64,000 nt of DNA from Ignavibacterium sp. (lineage in GTDB: Bacteria > Bacteroidota > Ignavibacteria > Ignavibacteriales > Ignavibacteriaceae). The first letter of the stretch is position 1; every line of letters starts with the position of its first letter. Shown here in pieces: positions 26,751 through 36,227 of this stretch. A model generated the notes under the pieces. The model saw nothing but the letters and a program-made list of their open reading frames with translations. It was not told the DNA's origin and ran no database searches. A program made the translations under genes and the position numbers. The stretch is taken from assembly GCA_032027145.1 (NCBI GenBank), contig JAVSMP010000001.1, forward strand, positions 2,361,116-2,425,115, in the 5' to 3' direction.

Positions 26751-27622
26751 AAGACGGCAGGATGGTAATATTAGCTGGCGGAATTTCATCACGAATGAAA
26801 AAGCCCTCAGCTGATAATCTGAAGGTTGAAGATAAACTAATTAAAGATGCAGATGAAAAGGCTAAATCAATGATTGGTGTTGGTAAAGATTACAGACCAT
26901 TTCTGGATTACCTTTTGTTCAATGCAAGAGAATCAGGTTACACTGATATAATGATTGTTATTGGTGAAAATGATAATTCAATAAAAGAATATTATGGTCC
27001 GAAAGATTATGATAATGCTTTTAACGGATTAAAAATTTCCTATGCAGTGCAGCCAATTCCTGATGGAAGAAACAAACCATTTGGAACAGCAGATGCGCTG
27101 ATGTGGGGATTAAAATCAAAACCGAACTGGGCGGGTAAAAAGTTTACTGTCTGCAACAGCGATAATCTTTATTCTCAAAAAGCATTAAGGATTGTGCTGA
27201 ATTCTGAATATCCGGGATTATTGATTGATTATGATCGTGAAGCTCTTGAATTTGAACATTCAAGAATAGAAAGGTTTGCGATAACAATTAAGAACAAAGA
27301 AGGTTTTTTAACAGACATAATTGAAAAACCAACTTCAGAAATTATTGATAGTGTGTTTAATCAAGATGGATATATTGGTGTAAGTATGAATATATTTTCA
27401 TTGGACTACGATTTGATTTTACCAATACTTGAAACAATTGAACCAAATCCGGAACGTGATGAAAAAGAACTTCCTGAAGCGGTTAAAAAATTAGCAAATA
27501 AAATAACTAACTCTGTGTTCGTCTATCCCTTAGCTGAGCATGTGCCTGATCTTACAAGTAAATCTGATATCTTAAATGTTAAAAAGTATTTAGAAAAATA
27601 TTATTATAATTTTTCTTTTTAG
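26747..27622 (+). CDS. Sugar-phosphate nucleotidyltransferase
   Basis: A 291-residue NTP_transferase. It has VILAGGISSRMKK, the variant of the LxGGxGxR nucleotide-binding loop, then CNSDNLYSQKAL as the metal-binding acidic motif, and IEKPTSE. It starts within ATGA, overlapping the kinase stop by 4 bases. The N-terminal loop carries a ~35-residue insertion (KPSADNLKVEDK ... GKDYRPFLDYLL) compared with RmlA/GlmU types. It is inferred to make an NDP-sugar from the kinase product. Confidence 0.87.
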   Translation: MKDGRMVILAGGISSRMKKPSADNLKVEDKLIKDADEKAKSMIGVGKDYRPFLDYLLFNARESGYTDIMIVIGENDNSIKEYYGPKDYDNAFNGLKISYAVQPIPDGRNKPFGTADALMWGLKSKPNWAGKKFTVCNSDNLYSQKALRIVLNSEYPGLLIDYDREALEFEHSRIERFAITIKNKEGFLTDIIEKPTSEIIDSVFNQDGYIGVSMNIFSLDYDLILPILETIEPNPERDEKELPEAVKKLANKITNSVFVYPLAEHVPDLTSKSDILNVKKYLEKYYYNFSF

Positions 27623-27697
27623 TAATGATATAATTATTTCCGAACTTTCCACTAAGGTACCCTTTTCTTAATTTCGTATAAAAATTATTCTTTAATA

Positions 27698-29308
27698 ATG
27701 ATACCCGTTCACATCCATACAAATCACTCATTGCTTCAAAGCACTGTTAGAATTGATGAGCTGATAAACAAATGTAAAGCAGAAAATATTCCTGCCGTTG
27801 CTGTTACTGATACAAATTCGATGGCAGGGTTAATACAATTTGCCAAAAAAGCGAAAGATGAAAATATCAAAACATTATTTGGCAGTTACATAAACGACCG
27901 GGTAAACAATGAGCTTTATGTTTTGTTAATTGCAAAAAATAATCAAGGTTATTCAGAGCTTTGTAAAATTATAACTCAAAGGAAATTAAATGATGATTTT
28001 GAACTCAAATCTATAATTCAGAAAAGACTGAAAAATTTAATCATAATTACTCCTTTTATCGAGCTATTGAAAGTGGCAGGGATAAATAATCTGGTTTATG
28101 CTGAATTGATTGTTACAAAAAAGAATAAAAAGAACAGCAGGGCATTATTTAGTTATGCAACAGAAAATAAAATACCTTTTGTTGCTTCAAATCCGGTTTA
28201 TTTTTTGGTAAAAGAAGATTATGAAATTTACAAACTTGTTTCATCAATAAGAGAAAACAAAACATTAGATTCTATTTCAGAAAGTAATTTGGTAGATGAG
28301 GAATTTTATTTTAAGAATAAAAGTGAAATTCAAAAGATATTTCAAAAAATTCCCGAAGCAATTGAAAACACTTACAAAATTGCATCAGAGTGTAATGTGG
28401 ATTTAAGTTTTGGTAAATATAAATATCCAATTTACAGTACTGATAAAAAAACAAGTTCTATAAATCTGCTTAAGGAAATTTCTTTCGAAGGCTTTTTGAA
28501 AAAATATAGTTCAGATAATTCAATTGCATATAAAAGACTTGAATATGAACTAAGTGTAATCTCAGAGCTTAATTTTGCAGACTATTTTTTAATTGTTCAA
28601 GATATTGTAAAAGAAGCAAAGAGAAGGGGAATGATGTTAATCGGAAGGGGATCTGCTGCAAACAGTATTGTATCTTATTGTCTGGATTTTACACAAATAG
28701 ATCCAGTTAAATATAATCTATACTTTGAAAGATTTCTTAACAAAGCCAGAAGTAATCCGCCTGATATTGACCTTGATTTTTCATGGAAAGAGCGGGACGA
28801 AATTATAAAATACATTTTTGAAAAATGGGGTTATGAAAGAGTTGCAATGATATCAACAATTGTAACCTTTAAAGCCAGATCAGCATTTCGGGAAACTGCC
28901 AAAGCATTTGGAATTACTGAAAGAGAAATATCCGGATACAGTAAGAAAATTCCTTGGACAAGCGCAGTAAACCTGAATAATATTTCACAAAAATTTCCTG
29001 AATCAAAAAAATTAGGATTTGATAAAGAGCCATGGAAATCAATTGTAAGATTAGCATCAAGACTTGCGGATTTCCCGCGTCATTTAAGTATTCATCCAAG
29101 CGGATTGGTTATAACTCCAGGTAAAATAACAGAATATTGTGCTTTAGAATACGCAAAAAATAAAGGGCTGGGTTTAATTATAACTCAACCAGATATGTAT
29201 TCAGTTGAAGACCTTGGTTTGATTAAGATTGATTTGTTAAGTCAGAGATCTTTGGGAGTTTTAAGAGACACGATGAATGTTTTAGAAAACAGAAGTGAAG
29301 AGACCTAA
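27698..29308 (+). CDS. DnaE-like DNA polymerase III alpha, N-terminal half only (PHP and palm)
   Basis: A 536-residue protein homologous to the first half of bacterial C-family polymerases (normally over 1000 residues). The PHP domain starts HIHTNHSLLQS (H5, H7), with VTDTNSM. The palm has GRGSAANS (~residue 317), PDIDLDF with D358 and D360, HLSIHPSGLVI, and KIDLLSQRS with D512, the three expected catalytic aspartates. It then ends 24 residues later. The fingers, beta-clamp-binding and OB regions are absent. No continuation is found downstream, where a convergent gene overlaps its stop by 3 bases. It is either a split or truncated gene or a specialised short form. Confidence 0.8.
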   Translation: MIPVHIHTNHSLLQSTVRIDELINKCKAENIPAVAVTDTNSMAGLIQFAKKAKDENIKTLFGSYINDRVNNELYVLLIAKNNQGYSELCKIITQRKLNDDFELKSIIQKRLKNLIIITPFIELLKVAGINNLVYAELIVTKKNKKNSRALFSYATENKIPFVASNPVYFLVKEDYEIYKLVSSIRENKTLDSISESNLVDEEFYFKNKSEIQKIFQKIPEAIENTYKIASECNVDLSFGKYKYPIYSTDKKTSSINLLKEISFEGFLKKYSSDNSIAYKRLEYELSVISELNFADYFLIVQDIVKEAKRRGMMLIGRGSAANSIVSYCLDFTQIDPVKYNLYFERFLNKARSNPPDIDLDFSWKERDEIIKYIFEKWGYERVAMISTIVTFKARSAFRETAKAFGITEREISGYSKKIPWTSAVNLNNISQKFPESKKLGFDKEPWKSIVRLASRLADFPRHLSIHPSGLVITPGKITEYCALEYAKNKGLGLIITQPDMYSVEDLGLIKIDLLSQRSLGVLRDTMNVLENRSEET

Positions 29309-29742
29309 TCTTTACCAGTTAGTTTCAAATAATCCGAACCGAAAAAGACTAATAACAAAGAACCTATTATCATCAATAAATTCTCGCCAAGTTTAAGAAG
29401 CCCGATTTGATTTCCTTTACCGAAGCATCCGCACTCAATATTTAATCCTCTGAACAAACTGATTATGATAGCTATCGTAAATACACTTAAGAAAAATAAA
29501 ATTATTGATGAATTTTCCTTTACCAAGATGCCAAACAATAATAATAAACCTGCAGCTAATTCAATCCATGGAAGTGTTATTGCAAAAAGATTTACTATTG
29601 CAACAGGTAATAATCTATAATTTGAAATAGACATTGAAAATCCTTCAGGATCCGAAATTTTTTCAATACTTGCGTAAACAAAAATAAATCCAATTATAAT
29701 TCTTATTATAAACAATAAATATTTATTTGATAATAATTTCAC
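29305..29742 (-). CDS. MauE/DoxX-like membrane protein
   Basis: A 145-residue protein with four transmembrane segments: LLFIIRIIIGFIFVYASIEK, an IELAAGLLLLFGILV stretch, a third hydrophobic run, and a C-terminal helix. The loop ECGCFGKGN holds the paired cysteines of the MauE-type family, which is linked to disulfide formation or thiol redox at the membrane. Its gene lies 2 bases after the rhodanese gene on the same strand, so both likely act together in periplasmic sulfur chemistry. Confidence 0.83.
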   Translation of the reverse strand: MKLLSNKYLLFIIRIIIGFIFVYASIEKISDPEGFSMSISNYRLLPVAIVNLFAITLPWIELAAGLLLLFGILVKENSSIILFFLSVFTIAIIISLFRGLNIECGCFGKGNQIGLLKLGENLLMIIGSLLLVFFGSDYLKLTGKD

Positions 29743-30592: not shown

Positions 30593-31282
30593 TCATTTTT
30601 TCTTCTTATGCTCCAGAAATTCATCAAGGTCTTTTCTCCTGAACTTGCCACCTTTTAATGATTTCAGTTTACCCTGCGATGCATAATTCTGCAATGTTTT
30701 TTTTGAGCTTCTTGTGTAAACAGCAGCTTCATCAGACGTTAATATGTCCTTCTCTATTATTCCAGATTTTTTAGGGGCTAATGTGGATCCTTGACTACCT
30801 AACATAGCTCTTTTAACAAAATACTGTCTCCAAATTAAATCATTAGGTTCAGCTTTTATTTGTGAATAAACATCTTCAGTATCCTTTTCAATAGAGGCTT
30901 TTATTGTAATATTATTTCTTCCGGTAGGATTATAAAAGCTATAGATTAATGTATCTTCCTCTCCAATATAAATATCAGTGGCCACCTCTTCTGGATCAAC
31001 AACTAATTGCTTGAGATTGTATCCAGGTCTTAGTTCCAGATAATATATTCCTCTAGGACCAACATCAGGTGCTAAACTTGTGAGACCGCTTGCATTAAAC
31101 AGAGGAGTATAGGAAATGTCAGGTTTGTACCTACTTATCTGAGATTTGTCCTTTGGAACCAGCTGCTGCAGCATTCCAGCAGCGAAAGGGAATTCTATCT
31201 CAGTTTTGAGGTCATACGTATAAGTCTCATAGCCCCAATCCCAGTCACGTTCAAAGATAATTTTATTGAGTTTATAGGACAT
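30593..31282 (-). CDS. Unknown protein with C-terminal HTH_17 (excisionase-like) domain
   Basis: A 229-residue protein. The last ~50 residues (ILTSDEAAVYTRSSKKTLQNY ... GGKFRRKDLDEFLEHKKKK) are a helix-turn-helix 17 / excisionase-type winged domain, a common DNA-binding module of mobile elements. The first ~175 residues (many aromatic and beta-prone stretches, GYETYTYDLKTEIEFPF, PRGIYYLELRPGYNLKQL) match nothing I recognise. It lies downstream of the giant gene on the same strand, but a terminator-like hairpin lies between them, so it may have its own promoter. Confidence 0.65.
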   Translation of the reverse strand: MSYKLNKIIFERDWDWGYETYTYDLKTEIEFPFAAGMLQQLVPKDKSQISRYKPDISYTPLFNASGLTSLAPDVGPRGIYYLELRPGYNLKQLVVDPEEVATDIYIGEEDTLIYSFYNPTGRNNITIKASIEKDTEDVYSQIKAEPNDLIWRQYFVKRAMLGSQGSTLAPKKSGIIEKDILTSDEAAVYTRSSKKTLQNYASQGKLKSLKGGKFRRKDLDEFLEHKKKK

Positions 31283-31484: not shown

Positions 31485-34400
31485 TTAACCTTGATATTGA
31501 TAAACATAATCCTTTAAATGCTCTTTATAGCTCATTCCCAGTTTATCCCAAATCGATGGATATTCGCAGGCTAAAGCTAATTTGCTTCGGTATGCAGCAA
31601 ACTCTTCAAGCAGAACCTTGTATACCTCTATTCTGAGATCCTCTCTATACCTCATCTTATTATCTGGCTTTACTGGCTGAAACATTTCCTCTGTTTCAGA
31701 GAACAAGGTGGTTTCTGGAAAATAATTCAATAAGTCTTGTTTAAGTAACGGCCCTATTCTTAGACAACCAAATCTTATCTTGGAGACATTCTTAGCCTCA
31801 AGATTTAATTCTTTCTTCATTCTCTTTGCTAATTCCTGGTATTCTTTAATAAATCCATTGTAAGCTATAACTGGTTCAATGCTGGGACGGATGATGAATC
31901 CTTTTGCTTTCTGAATTTTATTAAAAGCATCCATTCTTTCATCAAGCGAGGAAGTATCTTTTTCCCATGTAGTAATGGCGTGATCAGTATTGAATCCTAA
32001 TGTAACCTGAACTCTATTATGACCATTATATTTTACTAAATCATCTATATCTGCTGATTTTATATACATTGTGATATTAAAATCTTGTTCTCTTTGGATT
32101 CGTTGCATTAAAAAATCAAGATGACCAGTCAGGTGATTTGTCCTGACAATATCAGTATATTCTCCAACATTTAATTTTAATTTCAGCTTTGCATTCTCGC
32201 TGAAATAAGATCGTAAATCTTTTTTGATTTCATTAACTCTTGGGTAATCAAATTGCAGTCCCATACGACCAATAATATCGGCCAATCTTTTCTCAAGCTC
32301 TCTTTTCACATCTTCTAATTCATTAATAGAAGACCTAGGTCTTAGTATTTCTTTTCTGAAATCATCAACAACATCCTTGAATCCCTCTGGAATCTTTGGT
32401 AAAGTTTCTTTTTTGTAGAATGAGATTGCACTCCATAGACTATTTGCAAAATCAAATACTAATCTTTCTTTTTTTATTTCTTCTTCCCATCGATCAAGAT
32501 TTGTATATATTTTTCTCCAACGAGGTTCACCTGTCTGTGTCCCGTGCAGATAACAAAATTCACAGTTACTACTGCAATGGAACTGCAGGTTTGTAGTTAC
32601 TGTCATACCCTCAACAATATTTCCGGGTGACTCAAAACAGGCAGTAAATGGTGAACTTTCGCTTCTTGTTCCTAGTAAAAGAGTTTCGCTTAAGTATTTG
32701 TATCTTTCACTAATACCTAAGCTATCAGGATAAGTTGGTCTTTCACTGCTAACTTTTTCAATTTCAACTTTTGGGTTAAGCTGTTTAACTGTATTGATGA
32801 TTTGATTTGTGAGTGGTTGATCCTTCGCATTCTCTGTAATTAATAATCTGTTGGGTATAAACTTAGTTGATGCACTACTCTTGGTTCTAACAATACCTTC
32901 TGTAGAAAACTCAACATTATATCTCTTTGCGAAATCAGCAAGTTCATTCAGTTTTACCTCATAACATTTTTCATTGCCAGTAGTGTTTTTAACTTCAATG
33001 CCGAGTTTATTAAGTTCTCTTGAAAACTTACTTATAGAAATACTTCGCTTTCTGTAATCAGGAAGACTCGTTGTATAATTATAAACATCATTAGTTAAAT
33101 AATATAAAATATTTTCCCCATCAAGTTCCTTGAGCTTTTTATATCTGACAGATTTTAATGTTGTATTTAGTGCTTCAATTAATTTTATCAGTTCACTCGA
33201 CTCAGCATCAAGCACTTGGTGATATTTATATTCAGTTTTTGAATAAGCTAAAAGTGAATCTGATATTGATTTTGATTGCATATTAGCAGTGGACTCAATA
33301 ACATCGGCAATGATAAACATAGGAGCCCAGATGTCATACCTTCTGCTATCAAAATTCTTGAGGTAAGTATTGGCGGAATCGGTAACAGGATATCGCGAAT
33401 TTATCTCCGGTGCATAATGGAGGGCAAAATTATATAAATCATTCCGCAACGTTTGATGAAAGGTCTGCAGAGATTGGTTGTCTATATAACGCTCTAGTTT
33501 TTCCTCCTCAAGTTTCCTTTTCATTTGAATTTTAATGGTACGACTGTCAAGAGTTGCATTTATATCATTTATCCCCGCAAACATTTTGGGAGAATACGTT
33601 TTGTATTTTTCTATTCCACCTTTTTTACCGCTTCTGGATCTTGCAACATCTCCACTTTTAGCATAACCACTATTTAGTATGCTCATCAAATCATTAAACC
33701 CTGGTTTATTATATTTCTTAAAATCTTCAATTTCATCAAGTAGTAATGTTCTGGAATTTCTGTCAACATCTCGGAACAGGGTTGCAGTTGTAAGCGTTAC
33801 ATACATTGCGCCGTTGAAGCATAATGGTTTTATTATTTCGAAAAGATGAGATTTTCCTGATCCCTTTTCAGCTTGAATATGCACATAAGGGTAGTGACGG
33901 AATATCCTGAATACATAAGTTCCTATAATCCAAATTGATAAAAGATCATAAACATTCTGATTATCTATAAAAACATATTTCTTTAAGTAATCTCTAATTT
34001 TGTTAAAAAGATCAAACGGGTTTACCTTATAGTTTTTTATGAGATAATTTTCAACTCCTTCAAGACTAAAAAGGCTCTCATCTATGTCTTCATACTTTGT
34101 TTCAAGATTTTCTTTTTCCAGATCTTCAAGTTCAATTCTCCCATAGTTTGAAGTAATCACGCTTAGTTCTTCGTTGATATAGATGCCGAAATACATTTTG
34201 TCATTTATATAGTCCTGAGCAAGATTCAACTCATTTTTTTTACTGACCGAAGACTTCGCAGTTTTAATAAGTTCATAATTATTTACAAAATTTGCATCAA
34301 TGGTTTTTGATGTCTTAACTATTTCCTCAAAATCCTGAGTTGATTTTTTACTTCTGACGAAGAAACTTGAAACACTGTTATTTAGTGCAACTTGGGTAAG

Positions 34401-36227
34401 TTTACTTGCCTTGCCCTTGAATTGAATTGCCCAACGAATTGATTCTTCAACGTCATCAGTAATAATTAAAATTTCTTTACCCTTAATAAGTTTATTCCAT
34501 TCAGGATGCCACTTTGTTTCTTCTTCTATATTATAAAGAACATCATACCCAACCTGCCGCAGATAAATTGCATCGAGAATATCATTTACAAATAAAAATC
34601 TTGTTATGTTTTTAATATTTTTCGAAATCCTGCTGTAGTCCAGAAGTATTGAACAACCAATCACCACATCCTTTTTAGAGGTTTTATTAATTGGAAACTC
34701 AACATACTTCATAGCAACAATACCAGCTTGAGTAGCATTCAGAATTGGAAAGATTAACATTTGCTTCTGACCGTCATAACCAATCTGGTAATCCTTAATT
34801 GTTGAATCTGTTAGCCCACGATTGTTTTTAAGGTAATCTAACACGGGACTATTTGTTGGATCAAATAGGTTTTGTGAATGATTCTGAATAGTCTGCAAAT
34901 CTGGAAGAATACCTCCAGCGCTTATTAATTTGAAATAATCCATTACAAACGGTTCAGGTATTCCTTCAACCAATTGATAGAACTGAGCAGGAAATCCAGT
35001 ATTTTGAGTTCTTTTGCAAGTAAACAAACCACCCTTTTCAATTGTTAAATTTTTCCCAGTGTCATTTAAGATAAAGGGACTGTTAAAGTCATAGATTTCC
35101 TTATCGGGTGACTCCTTTAACATTTCAGGATAGTAGGATGAATAAAATTTTTGCGCAGTTGATAGATTTGAATTGCTCATAATATTAGTCCTAATTGAAC
35201 TCTGTAAATTATTCATTTTACTTTTTATATACCCCCAGTTAACATCATTTAATTCATCGTAACCCATCTCGACTTTTGCCAAGGGTTGGACTGATGACCG
35301 TTCCTGAAATTTGCTCATAGAAGCCCAGGCTTTATCAGAGGGCATTACAATATCGATTGTTTCCGCTTGACCGTTTACCAGATATTCCTCTCCACTCTTT
35401 ATCATATGAGCCTGACTGATAATCGTGTCAGTTCTACTACCAGTCTGTGGCAGTTTATACTGAACGAGATCGTCGAATGAAATATTTTTAACATCATTCC
35501 ACTGAAAATAATTCAATGCTTTATTCTTCAGTGCTTGTGCACCGGCATTAAAAGTAATTCTTTTTAATTCGTCCAGTTCAGTGACACCACCATAAAATGG
35601 CATAGCCATAACTCGAACAAATATATCTTCCTTGGATAGTTTCTCAATAGTCTCTAATCTTTTTTTAATTGTTGGTGTAAAAAGTTCCAAATCACGAAGT
35701 TGACTTTCATAGGGAGTTGAAAAACTCATCTCTACCTGAATCATATCCCTCATCACTTTAAGTTTATTAATATGTCGCTCTATTAAATGGCTTTTGGTCA
35801 AGATGTGAAGCATCCATTTGTTCCCATTTATCCAATGGTTCTGAAAGACTTCTAGAATTTTCATCATCAGGTCCCGATTCTGATTATCAAGCTCTGTAAG
35901 AACTTCACTCAAATAATAATCACTTGTTTCATTTATCTGGACACGCTTTAGATGCTGAGGCAGTGATTTCAGTCTCTCTAGATCTTTATTTAATGATTCA
36001 GCTAAATCTATTTTTATCGTTGATTCATTGAAAAAATGGTCTCTTCCACTTTTAGCAAAATTTTTTCGATAGGTCAATGGCGAATAACAAAACTTGCAAC
36101 CAAAGCTACAGCCCATTGTGGGATTAAGGGTAAATGGAAAGCCATAGGGATAGATACTAGAAGGGGTTTGGGCGTTTAAAGCATTAACTGCACCTGATCT
36201 TATTGATGTTTTATGTAATGGGGGCAT
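31485..36227 (-). CDS. Giant fusion: SPL-type radical SAM, degenerate primase/TOPRIM, AAA-type ATPase, second SPL-type radical SAM
   Basis: One uninterrupted 1580-residue frame. Residues ~25-290 are a COG1533 (SplB-like) radical SAM domain with NPTMGCSFGCKFCYSP (C40, C44, C47). Residues ~395-435 look like a decayed DnaG zinc finger (GGLFTCKRT). Residues ~461-512 resemble the DnaG TOPRIM_N part (LDYLKNNRGLTDSTIKDYQIGY) and ~543-613 a TOPRIM domain lacking the usual Glu (FVNDILDAIYL; ITDDVEES). Residues ~755-905 are an ATPase with Walker A AEKGSGKS (K792), Walker B TLLLDEIED (D831, E832) and NATLDSRTIKI, like DUF3631-type helicases. Residues ~1175-1545 are a spore photoproduct lyase-like domain with HCSSNCEFCYLH (C1218, C1222, C1225) and long SPL similarity afterwards. 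Substrate is likely nucleic acid. No ribosome binding site is seen before the ATG. Confidence 0.85.
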   Translation of the reverse strand: MPPLHKTSIRSGAVNALNAQTPSSIYPYGFPFTLNPTMGCSFGCKFCYSPLTYRKNFAKSGRDHFFNESTIKIDLAESLNKDLERLKSLPQHLKRVQINETSDYYLSEVLTELDNQNRDLMMKILEVFQNHWINGNKWMLHILTKSHLIERHINKLKVMRDMIQVEMSFSTPYESQLRDLELFTPTIKKRLETIEKLSKEDIFVRVMAMPFYGGVTELDELKRITFNAGAQALKNKALNYFQWNDVKNISFDDLVQYKLPQTGSRTDTIISQAHMIKSGEEYLVNGQAETIDIVMPSDKAWASMSKFQERSSVQPLAKVEMGYDELNDVNWGYIKSKMNNLQSSIRTNIMSNSNLSTAQKFYSSYYPEMLKESPDKEIYDFNSPFILNDTGKNLTIEKGGLFTCKRTQNTGFPAQFYQLVEGIPEPFVMDYFKLISAGGILPDLQTIQNHSQNLFDPTNSPVLDYLKNNRGLTDSTIKDYQIGYDGQKQMLIFPILNATQAGIVAMKYVEFPINKTSKKDVVIGCSILLDYSRISKNIKNITRFLFVNDILDAIYLRQVGYDVLYNIEEETKWHPEWNKLIKGKEILIITDDVEESIRWAIQFKGKASKLTQVALNNSVSSFFVRSKKSTQDFEEIVKTSKTIDANFVNNYELIKTAKSSVSKKNELNLAQDYINDKMYFGIYINEELSVITSNYGRIELEDLEKENLETKYEDIDESLFSLEGVENYLIKNYKVNPFDLFNKIRDYLKKYVFIDNQNVYDLLSIWIIGTYVFRIFRHYPYVHIQAEKGSGKSHLFEIIKPLCFNGAMYVTLTTATLFRDVDRNSRTLLLDEIEDFKKYNKPGFNDLMSILNSGYAKSGDVARSRSGKKGGIEKYKTYSPKMFAGINDINATLDSRTIKIQMKRKLEEEKLERYIDNQSLQTFHQTLRNDLYNFALHYAPEINSRYPVTDSANTYLKNFDSRRYDIWAPMFIIADVIESTANMQSKSISDSLLAYSKTEYKYHQVLDAESSELIKLIEALNTTLKSVRYKKLKELDGENILYYLTNDVYNYTTSLPDYRKRSISISKFSRELNKLGIEVKNTTGNEKCYEVKLNELADFAKRYNVEFSTEGIVRTKSSASTKFIPNRLLITENAKDQPLTNQIINTVKQLNPKVEIEKVSSERPTYPDSLGISERYKYLSETLLLGTRSESSPFTACFESPGNIVEGMTVTTNLQFHCSSNCEFCYLHGTQTGEPRWRKIYTNLDRWEEEIKKERLVFDFANSLWSAISFYKKETLPKIPEGFKDVVDDFRKEILRPRSSINELEDVKRELEKRLADIIGRMGLQFDYPRVNEIKKDLRSYFSENAKLKLKLNVGEYTDIVRTNHLTGHLDFLMQRIQREQDFNITMYIKSADIDDLVKYNGHNRVQVTLGFNTDHAITTWEKDTSSLDERMDAFNKIQKAKGFIIRPSIEPVIAYNGFIKEYQELAKRMKKELNLEAKNVSKIRFGCLRIGPLLKQDLLNYFPETTLFSETEEMFQPVKPDNKMRYREDLRIEVYKVLLEEFAAYRSKLALACEYPSIWDKLGMSYKEHLKDYVYQYQG

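Follow-up and report, generated by a model that had tools for sequence, protein, structure and literature searches.

The window, a 64,000-nucleotide stretch of Ignavibacterium DNA, carries a 536-codon open reading frame whose predicted product has a PHP domain and the palm of a C-family DNA polymerase (Table 1). An earlier note on this DNA had read the frame in this way, naming PHP and palm motifs with D358, D360 and D512; the ORF call, Pfam and an alignment of 17 palm halves, in which the three catalytic aspartates are invariant, bear this out. The convergent gene said to overlap its stop is also there, a MauE/DoxX-like gene on the reverse strand (29305-29742) with an overlap of 4 nt. Fingers, HhH and OB domains were not found by Pfam in the 536-aa ORF. 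An AlphaFold2 model of the palm half, made from 17 of the available sequences, had a mean pLDDT of 79.1 and was weak from about residue 470 to the end. Residues 1-534 of the model, re-aligned to an entry on the Foldseek list, E. coli Pol III alpha (2hqa), gave a Z of 33.0 and an rmsd of 3.9 over 524 residues.

Table 1. Positions of the two polymerase genes and their features (window coordinates, except for the last row)
Feature	Position	Strand	Basis
Palm half (N-half) of split DnaE2-type polymerase, 536 aa, ATG start	27698..29308	+	ORF call, Pfam, AF2 model
PHP domain, residues 4-115	27707..28042	+	Pfam, E 9e-22
Palm/thumb catalytic domain PF07733, residues 258-514	28469..29239	+	Pfam, profile 3-259 of 260, E 1.5e-79
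Catalytic aspartates D358 and D360 (PDIDLDF)	28769..28777	+	Invariant in 17 aligned sequences
Catalytic aspartate D512 (KIDLLSQRS)	29231..29233	+	Invariant in 17 aligned sequences
Palm end and short variable tail; fused relatives continue directly into fingers	29264..29305	+	Alignment
Region 5' of palm half; neither LexA-type palindrome present	27448..27697	+	Whole-genome pattern searches, upstream scans
Fingers-half gene (fingers, HhH, OB; 554 aa)	G000:C1:1731540-1733204	+	Genome-wide profile search, Pfam

The window also encodes a 1580-aa protein on the reverse strand (31485-36227), an unusual fusion with an N-terminal radical SAM domain (Pfam) and a C-terminal spore-photoproduct-lyase-like domain; in between lie a DUF3631 stretch and one resembling DnaG-N, the latter under its cut-off. 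A gene for a small HTH_17 protein (30593-31282) adjoins it.

The two halves and the class of the polymerase

The window genome is a single contig of 3,665,746 bases and is 99.54% complete. Two palm domains were detected in it, one belonging to the window gene and one to DnaE1, a frame of 1155 codons. Of the two fingers domains, one is likewise that of DnaE1, and the other lies at C1:1731.5k, in a separate frame that also contains the genome's second HhH_6 match. Thus, the genome search for a separate fingers half that the earlier note had proposed yielded one fingers domain besides DnaE1, in a palm-less ORF. This gene (L037:9541-11202 plus stop; 554 aa from its ATG, 573 from an upstream GTG) carries PF17657, PF14579 and PF01336 (27.8 against a cut-off of 27) and no palm in Pfam. 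It lies about 656 kb from the palm-half gene on the same contig, between a 5' gene, which we take to be ftsZ, and a 3' yajQ-like gene. A fingers remnant adjoining the window gene was also considered and rejected, as the genome-wide fingers search matched nothing but DnaE1 and the partner gene. Three 87-aa ORFs, identical to one another, stand in tandem next to the fingers half, 317 bases apart (L037:11837-12734); they presumably resemble GIY-YIG nucleases.

The model of the fingers half, made from 16 of the available sequences, had a mean pLDDT of 72.5, and its re-alignment to residues 598-1099 of M. tuberculosis DnaE1 (7pu7), likewise on the Foldseek list, gave a Z of 17.4 and an rmsd of 5.8 over 448 residues. 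In the alignment, the protein ends about 57 residues past its OB match with a tail unlike the DnaE1 C terminus. Judged from their sequences, the two genes jointly encode a single polymerase of the DnaE type, in which no tau-binding C-terminal domain is recognisable.

Long stretches of the fingers are invariant in 16 aligned fingers halves, as is a leucine-phenylalanine pair at what we take to be the position of the DnaE1 internal clamp motif. The earlier note held all motifs to be intact, which is true of the polymerase site but not of the PHP domain, where the HxH pair is kept nearly always in the split rows and the other comparable metal-ligand columns are substituted. Five columns (D23, H48, E73, D226 and H228, M. 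tuberculosis numbering) were mapped by motif; that H48 and H228 are ligands, and that columns can be matched by motif, are our assumptions. The part of PMC5636811 available to us names D23, E73, H107 and D226 as PHP metal ligands. All 16 split rows have substitutions in the five columns (for example, TDTN for TDHG and NPVYF for NDCHY), two rows having a glutamate at the D23 column. The genome's own DnaE1 retains all compared ligands, and L169, an unsplit relative described below, has lost H48 alone of the five. The PHP domain in the window is probably without exonuclease activity, and with a site so degenerate the enzyme should not proofread. This resembles DnaE2, which, in the sections of PMC12926913 at hand, is an error-prone, non-essential polymerase with a PHP site inactivated with few exceptions.

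The PF07733 palm with three aspartates in one gene and the fingers, HhH and OB domains in the other place the pair in the C family. The absence of a tau-binding domain after OB in the alignment, the degenerate PHP site and the tree position with DnaE2 assign it to DnaE2, which lacks a C-terminal tau-binding domain after OB according to the portion of PMC3919608 consulted. Within DnaE2, the pair resembles DnaE2B, as no ImuA or ImuB was seen and the Y-family polymerase (PolY) has a RecA-NT-like tail (one IMS and one RecA-family match). It does not belong to the ImuA-ImuB-DnaE2A mutasome: the genome holds no imuB-type inactive PolY, and the rows fall outside the DnaE2A clade.

Conservation, origin and gene order

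We counted strong matches above the DnaE1 level in 59 genomes from the same genus, family and order, with the window genome included and related genomes treated as independent. Both halves were present in 39, the palm half only in 2 (G029 and G035), the fingers half only in 2 (G007 and G053) and neither in 16 (Fisher p 2e-10); some of the four one-half genomes may be assembly gaps. The split-half reading in the earlier note is thus supported by co-occurrence of the two genes across related genomes, 39 of the 41 genomes with a palm half having a fingers-half match as well. Fingers halves counted as present include one truncated at a contig end (G001), two that are each divided between two contigs (G031 and G048) and the interrupted one of G040 (L200, G040:C11), a 480-codon open frame with about 120 internal residues missing or unalignable, in a genome that keeps its palm half. 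Three genomes counted as having neither half contain traces: in G008, where no fingers half was found, about 100 codons of the palm half remain directly after dinB, interrupted by an in-frame stop; G010 has a palm-half fragment at a contig end; and G028 has an apparent fingers-half remnant and no palm half. G040 also has a full-length DnaE-like gene, L185 (G040:C29), of 1005 aa and with a long branch, which groups neither with DnaE2-like nor with DnaE1 rows.

The palm halves of the other genomes are 48-90% identical to that of the window, and in the 41 genomes all lie in frames of 530-579 codons. Relatives with a full-length gene here and a decayed palm in the window gene, the pattern that the earlier note had set against its own reading, were not seen: all 41 matches in the 59 genomes have at most 579 codons, and the palm residues are invariant. 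Among 395 genomes across the phylum (E <= 1e-68), a half-size gene was found in 25, all of this order, 40 members of which were counted (15 without the gene); with this cut-off, half-size genes of weaker similarity in other orders may have escaped detection. In other families, the open frames whose matches span almost all of the palm half are 974-1100 codons long.

We further surveyed named loci, taking the best 80 of 203 and setting aside L169, a single ORF matching both half models, which left 79 split loci. These are labelled mostly Ignavibacteriales, Ignavibacteria, Ignavibacteriaceae and Melioribacteraceae, several only Bacteroidetes, and single ones Chlorobiota (L118) and Cloacimonadota (L112). 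Among these best 80 of 203 loci, the palm-half ORF is intact at 529-592 aa in 72 of the 79 split ones, ends at a contig edge in five and is shorter in two (311 and 406 aa). The stop position, which the earlier note had suggested checking, is thus conserved. Besides, comparison of the window genome with two same-genus relatives gave dN/dS values of 0.084 and 0.113 for the palm half (synonymous sites being close to saturation against G003) and of 0.086 and 0.081 for the fingers half, which indicates that both halves are under purifying selection. The fresh deletion that the earlier note had considered possible, that is, a recent truncation, is therefore ruled out by the conserved stop, the dN/dS of about 0.1 and the SH-aLRT of 99 for the clade of N-halves. 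On these comparisons, the window ORF is a genuine palm half (PHP, palm and thumb) of a DnaE2-type polymerase and no truncated relic. The mirror-tree correlation of the two halves (r 0.81, with 0 of 2000 permutations as high) was not counted as evidence, since shared species history yields the same.

The closest unsplit relative among the matches listed is L169, one ORF of 1008 aa on a contig labelled candidate division KSB1 bacterium. It has PHP, palm, fingers and HhH domains and a weak OB match (25.2 bits, below the cut-off of 27), and its palm half is 47% identical. It stands in a run of DinB, DnaE2, DUF72 and SRAP genes, a layout perhaps close to the ancestral one; DinB and DUF72, which flank it, recur beside split genes too.

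Trees were made of palm halves (42 rows) and fingers halves (41 rows), including 17 fused rows selected from the matches of a phylum-wide search, and were rooted on DnaE1 by choice. In the palm-half tree, the 16 split rows form one clade (SH-aLRT 99) with L169 as sister (93), both lying in a larger group (99) with the 17 fused rows, which stem from other families of the phylum. The larger group is joined, with a support of 100, by three DnaE2A rows and a long Streptomyces row; DnaE1, L185 and an Anoxybacillus DnaE fall apart from the DnaE2 branch. In the fingers-half tree, the 15 split rows form one clade (100), L169 lies at an open fork and is not resolved as sister, and the split and fused rows join the DnaE2A and Streptomyces rows with a support of 98. 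The three DnaE2A rows, two from beside imuA and an imuB-like gene and one from beside an imuB-like gene only, form a separate clade in both trees, where the long Streptomyces row, flagged as unsure, joins them. Thus, in both trees the split rows group with the fused DnaE2-like rows that represent other families of the phylum, and the simplest reading would be one split event near the base of the order.

Alignment with fused relatives places the cut in the linker that joins palm and fingers. In fused DnaE2-like rows, nothing is inserted between K(x)D(x)L and the fingers motif. The split palm half, by contrast, has a short and variable C-terminal tail, and its fingers counterpart has about 25-60 extra N-terminal residues and a conserved C-terminal tail (LDKEKLxxAY), the latter missing from L169. 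The added ends of both halves are candidates for docking.

The arrangement of the two genes varies. Among the 79 split loci (best 80 of 203), the fingers half lies within the examined flank in 26, in the order fingers-then-palm on the same strand in 9, palm-then-fingers in 4, divergently in 11 and convergently in 2. In the same survey (best 80 of 203), a DinB gene lies within the flank in 33 of 79, a dinB or fingers half on the strand of the palm half in 41, and no partner in 36, many of these on short contigs. Among the 59 genomes, six one-contig ones have both halves, which are far apart in five (G000, G002, G006, G012 and G024) and about 2 kb apart in G054. The varied arrangements and the wide separation imply that the halves have moved independently and that the split is no reading-frame accident. 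DUF72 also recurs beside the polymerase module (23 of the 79 split loci, best 80 of 203; L090-L169).

LexA-type palindromes and the DinB partner

We noticed a palindrome, AGTGNNCANNTGNNCACT, upstream of fingers-half genes. The pattern AGTRNNCANNTGNNYACT has three exact sites in the window genome, two in tandem before lexA (the LexA-1 gene, L206:5957-6604, TIGR00498, of canonical type) and one before the fingers half; a reversed-pattern control gave 0 sites in the same genome. Because of its position before lexA, we read this first palindrome as a putative LexA site. With one mismatch allowed, it lies upstream of 39 of 48 fingers-half genes as against 1 of 83 palm-half genes, and of 10 of 39 DinB genes, 0 of 25 DUF72 genes and 3 of 487 other ORFs; exact sites number 29, 1, 4, 0 and 2, respectively. 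These counts exclude contig-cut genes, genes with fewer than 120 bases upstream, copies identical in residues 61-200 and ORFs longer than 850 aa. The single palm-half gene with the site belongs to a divergent pair sharing it, and two of the three other ORFs are divergent neighbours sharing the site of a fingers half (L072 and L141). The fingers-half count is partly circular, because the pattern was drawn from part of the same upstream regions, which leaves the lexA sites and the contrast with the palm halves unaffected.

A second LexA gene (LexA-2, L089:7589-8212) leads a lexA2-DUF72-dinB run and has its own palindrome, CCATACAAATGTATGG; with one mismatch allowed, the whole genome has one site of this type, before that run. 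The genome thus has two LexA paralogues with different palindromes, one common to the fingers half and the other heading the DUF72-dinB run. Among the loci examined, the second palindrome precedes 1 of 9 fingers-half genes without the first type (G014) and one palm-half gene (L143). Control of the window palm half by LexA-2 was rejected, no site being nearby, and eight AT-rich inverted repeats 5' of the gene were taken as chance. With dinB or the fingers half often nearby on the same strand (41 of the 79 split loci, best 80 of 203), a palm half may be co-transcribed with a controlled gene. Bacteroidetes SOS repressors that recognise other motifs control dinB-polymerase III alpha operons, as described in the available part of PMC8565304.

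The sole Y-family match in the window genome is a DinB-like protein that has the catalytic residues and a clamp-type motif, QEYLF (QxxLF). Its tail, VRDKFGYESLLFG, resembles by eye the N terminus of the genome's own RecA, IEKTYGKGAIMKLG. ImuA-ImuB partner genes were considered and rejected, as the genome has only one Y-family and one RecA-family match. The Bacteroidetes DnaE2B-PolY-RecA group has the same make-up, and the accessible text of PMC12926913 does not mention a split DnaE2.

Interpretation, alternatives and known systems

We consider it likely that the two genes encode a heterodimeric, DnaE2-type (DnaE2B-like) translesion polymerase that is completed by a damage-induced fingers half and works with a RecA-binding DinB; the pairing of the halves is the firmest part of this model. 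The sequences themselves show the split and its conservation, the pairing, the loss of PHP ligands, the uneven distribution of the palindrome and the association with DinB and DUF72; binding of LexA, assembly of the chains, polymerase activity, gating and the partnership with RecA and the clamp are predictions. Upon DNA damage, RecA filaments would cut LexA-1 and LexA-2, so that the fingers half and DinB would be produced. The fingers half would then bind the palm half without covalent joining and complete a non-proofreading polymerase, its active site rebuilt from the aspartates of the palm chain and the nucleotide- and template-holding fingers of the other chain, and DinB would link this split polymerase to RecA and the clamp. 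Since each half by itself should lack polymerase activity, the enzyme would become complete once damage induces synthesis of the fingers half. More tentatively, we suggest an AND gate, which seems possible rather than probable to us across the order: the palm half would be made beforehand and be harmless alone, cleavage of LexA would release the fingers half, and the second LexA would link the system to the RecA-binding DinB. Such gating through one half would be an attractive model wherever the palm half stands alone, as in this genome, and a weaker one where dinB or the fingers half lies nearby on its strand (41 of the 79 split loci, best 80 of 203).

The same loci, where a transcript is possibly shared, would suit a heterodimer made constitutively, or with both halves induced alike, in which the palindrome asymmetry has no functional consequence; so would the 10 of 39 dinB genes with a site and the palm-half gene with a LexA-2-type site. 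We regard this as unlikely, because the site is found at 39 of 48 fingers-half genes but at just 1 of the 83 palm-half genes, and in this genome its exact form occurs only at lexA and the fingers half. As for the palm half itself, the earlier note had left open either half of a split polymerase or a short protein with a new role, and our results favour the former. A stand-alone protein unrelated to the fingers half would account for the 36 of 79 split loci (best 80 of 203) without a partner in the flank, many of them short contigs, and for the 2 of 59 genomes with a palm half only, but it is very improbable given the invariant polymerase-site aspartates, the fingers-half match in 39 of 41 palm-half genomes, the existence of an unsplit relative and the case of G008, where the fingers half is absent and the palm half has decayed.

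A catalytically silent complex, serving DinB as a scaffold in the way that the inactive ImuB serves DnaE2, is also improbable. An apparently active DinB does recur nearby (33 of the 79 split loci, best 80 of 203), yet in a silent complex some loss would be expected among the aspartates invariant in 17 sequences and the fingers stretches invariant in 16. Post-translational joining by a split intein, as in cyanobacterial DnaE, is hardly credible. Inteins are larger than the residues available at the added ends: only 15 residues follow the last invariant position of the palm half, and the fingers half has about 33 extra here, so that these ends, fewer than 50 residues in total in this genome, leave no room for two intein parts. 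Besides, the added ends differ between relatives, and no intein domain is among the Pfam matches of either half; we thus rejected an intein, although cyanobacteria are known to have intein-split C-family polymerases (PMC3919608, in the part available).

The heterodimeric polymerase that we favour comes close to the DnaE2B-PolY-RecA system of Bacteroidetes (PMC12926913, as far as its available text goes), which likewise has a DnaE2 outside the ImuA-ImuB module, with a degenerate PHP site and tied to a Y-family polymerase that is apparently active and bears a RecA-NT-like tail. It differs in consisting of two genes cut between palm and fingers and often far apart, in the extra N- and C-terminal segments of the fingers half, and in a LexA-type palindrome mainly on the fingers half. 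With the ImuA-ImuB-DnaE2 mutasome (DnaE2A/ImuC) it shares the SOS link, a non-replicative role and a Y-family partner; that DnaE2 is in one piece and works with an inactive ImuB and ImuA, whereas the present genome has a single RecA-family match and a single Y-family match, the latter with catalytic residues. In cyanobacteria, the split DnaE is the replicative enzyme, joined by a split intein. That enzyme is also a C-family polymerase in two genes (PMC3919608, in the part at hand), unlike which the present one is of the non-replicative DnaE2 type, with no intein found. The dinB-polymerase III alpha operons of Bacteroidetes also combine a Y-family and a DnaE-type gene under an SOS repressor; as described in the accessible sections of PMC8565304, they have one polymerase gene in the operon, a non-canonical LexA and the motif GGA-N5-TCC, whereas here we find a two-gene polymerase, another palindrome and a canonical-type LexA. 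A natural two-gene DNA polymerase is also known in the split PolB3 of Methanobacteriales, an archaeal enzyme of family B, the origin of which is thought to be erratic intein excision (PMC4104785, available portion).

To our knowledge, C-family polymerases have been treated as single chains, except for the intein-joined cyanobacterial DnaE. In the accessible parts of the literature searched (including PMC3919608, PMC12926913, PMC8565304, PMC9318685, PMC4104785 and PMC5636811), a split DnaE2 is not described, and neither is an intein-free palm/fingers split of a C-family polymerase with a palindrome mainly on one half, which thus appears to be a new variant of DnaE2. The consulted part of PMC3919608 lists DnaE1 and DnaE2 for one Ignavibacteria genome and states that fragmented sequences were reconstructed where close relatives were intact. 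Such systems may be overlooked or misjudged in surveys that search for full-length DnaE2 or only for the palm domain. The palm half has been kept, with the split, in three families of one order, and an intein-free division between palm and fingers that has lasted so implies that a C-family active site can be built from two proteins, offering a natural split polymerase for studies of mechanism and for engineering. Furthermore, the one-sided LexA-type palindrome suggests that these bacteria may control mutagenesis by assembly of the polymerase, as opposed to making the whole enzyme.
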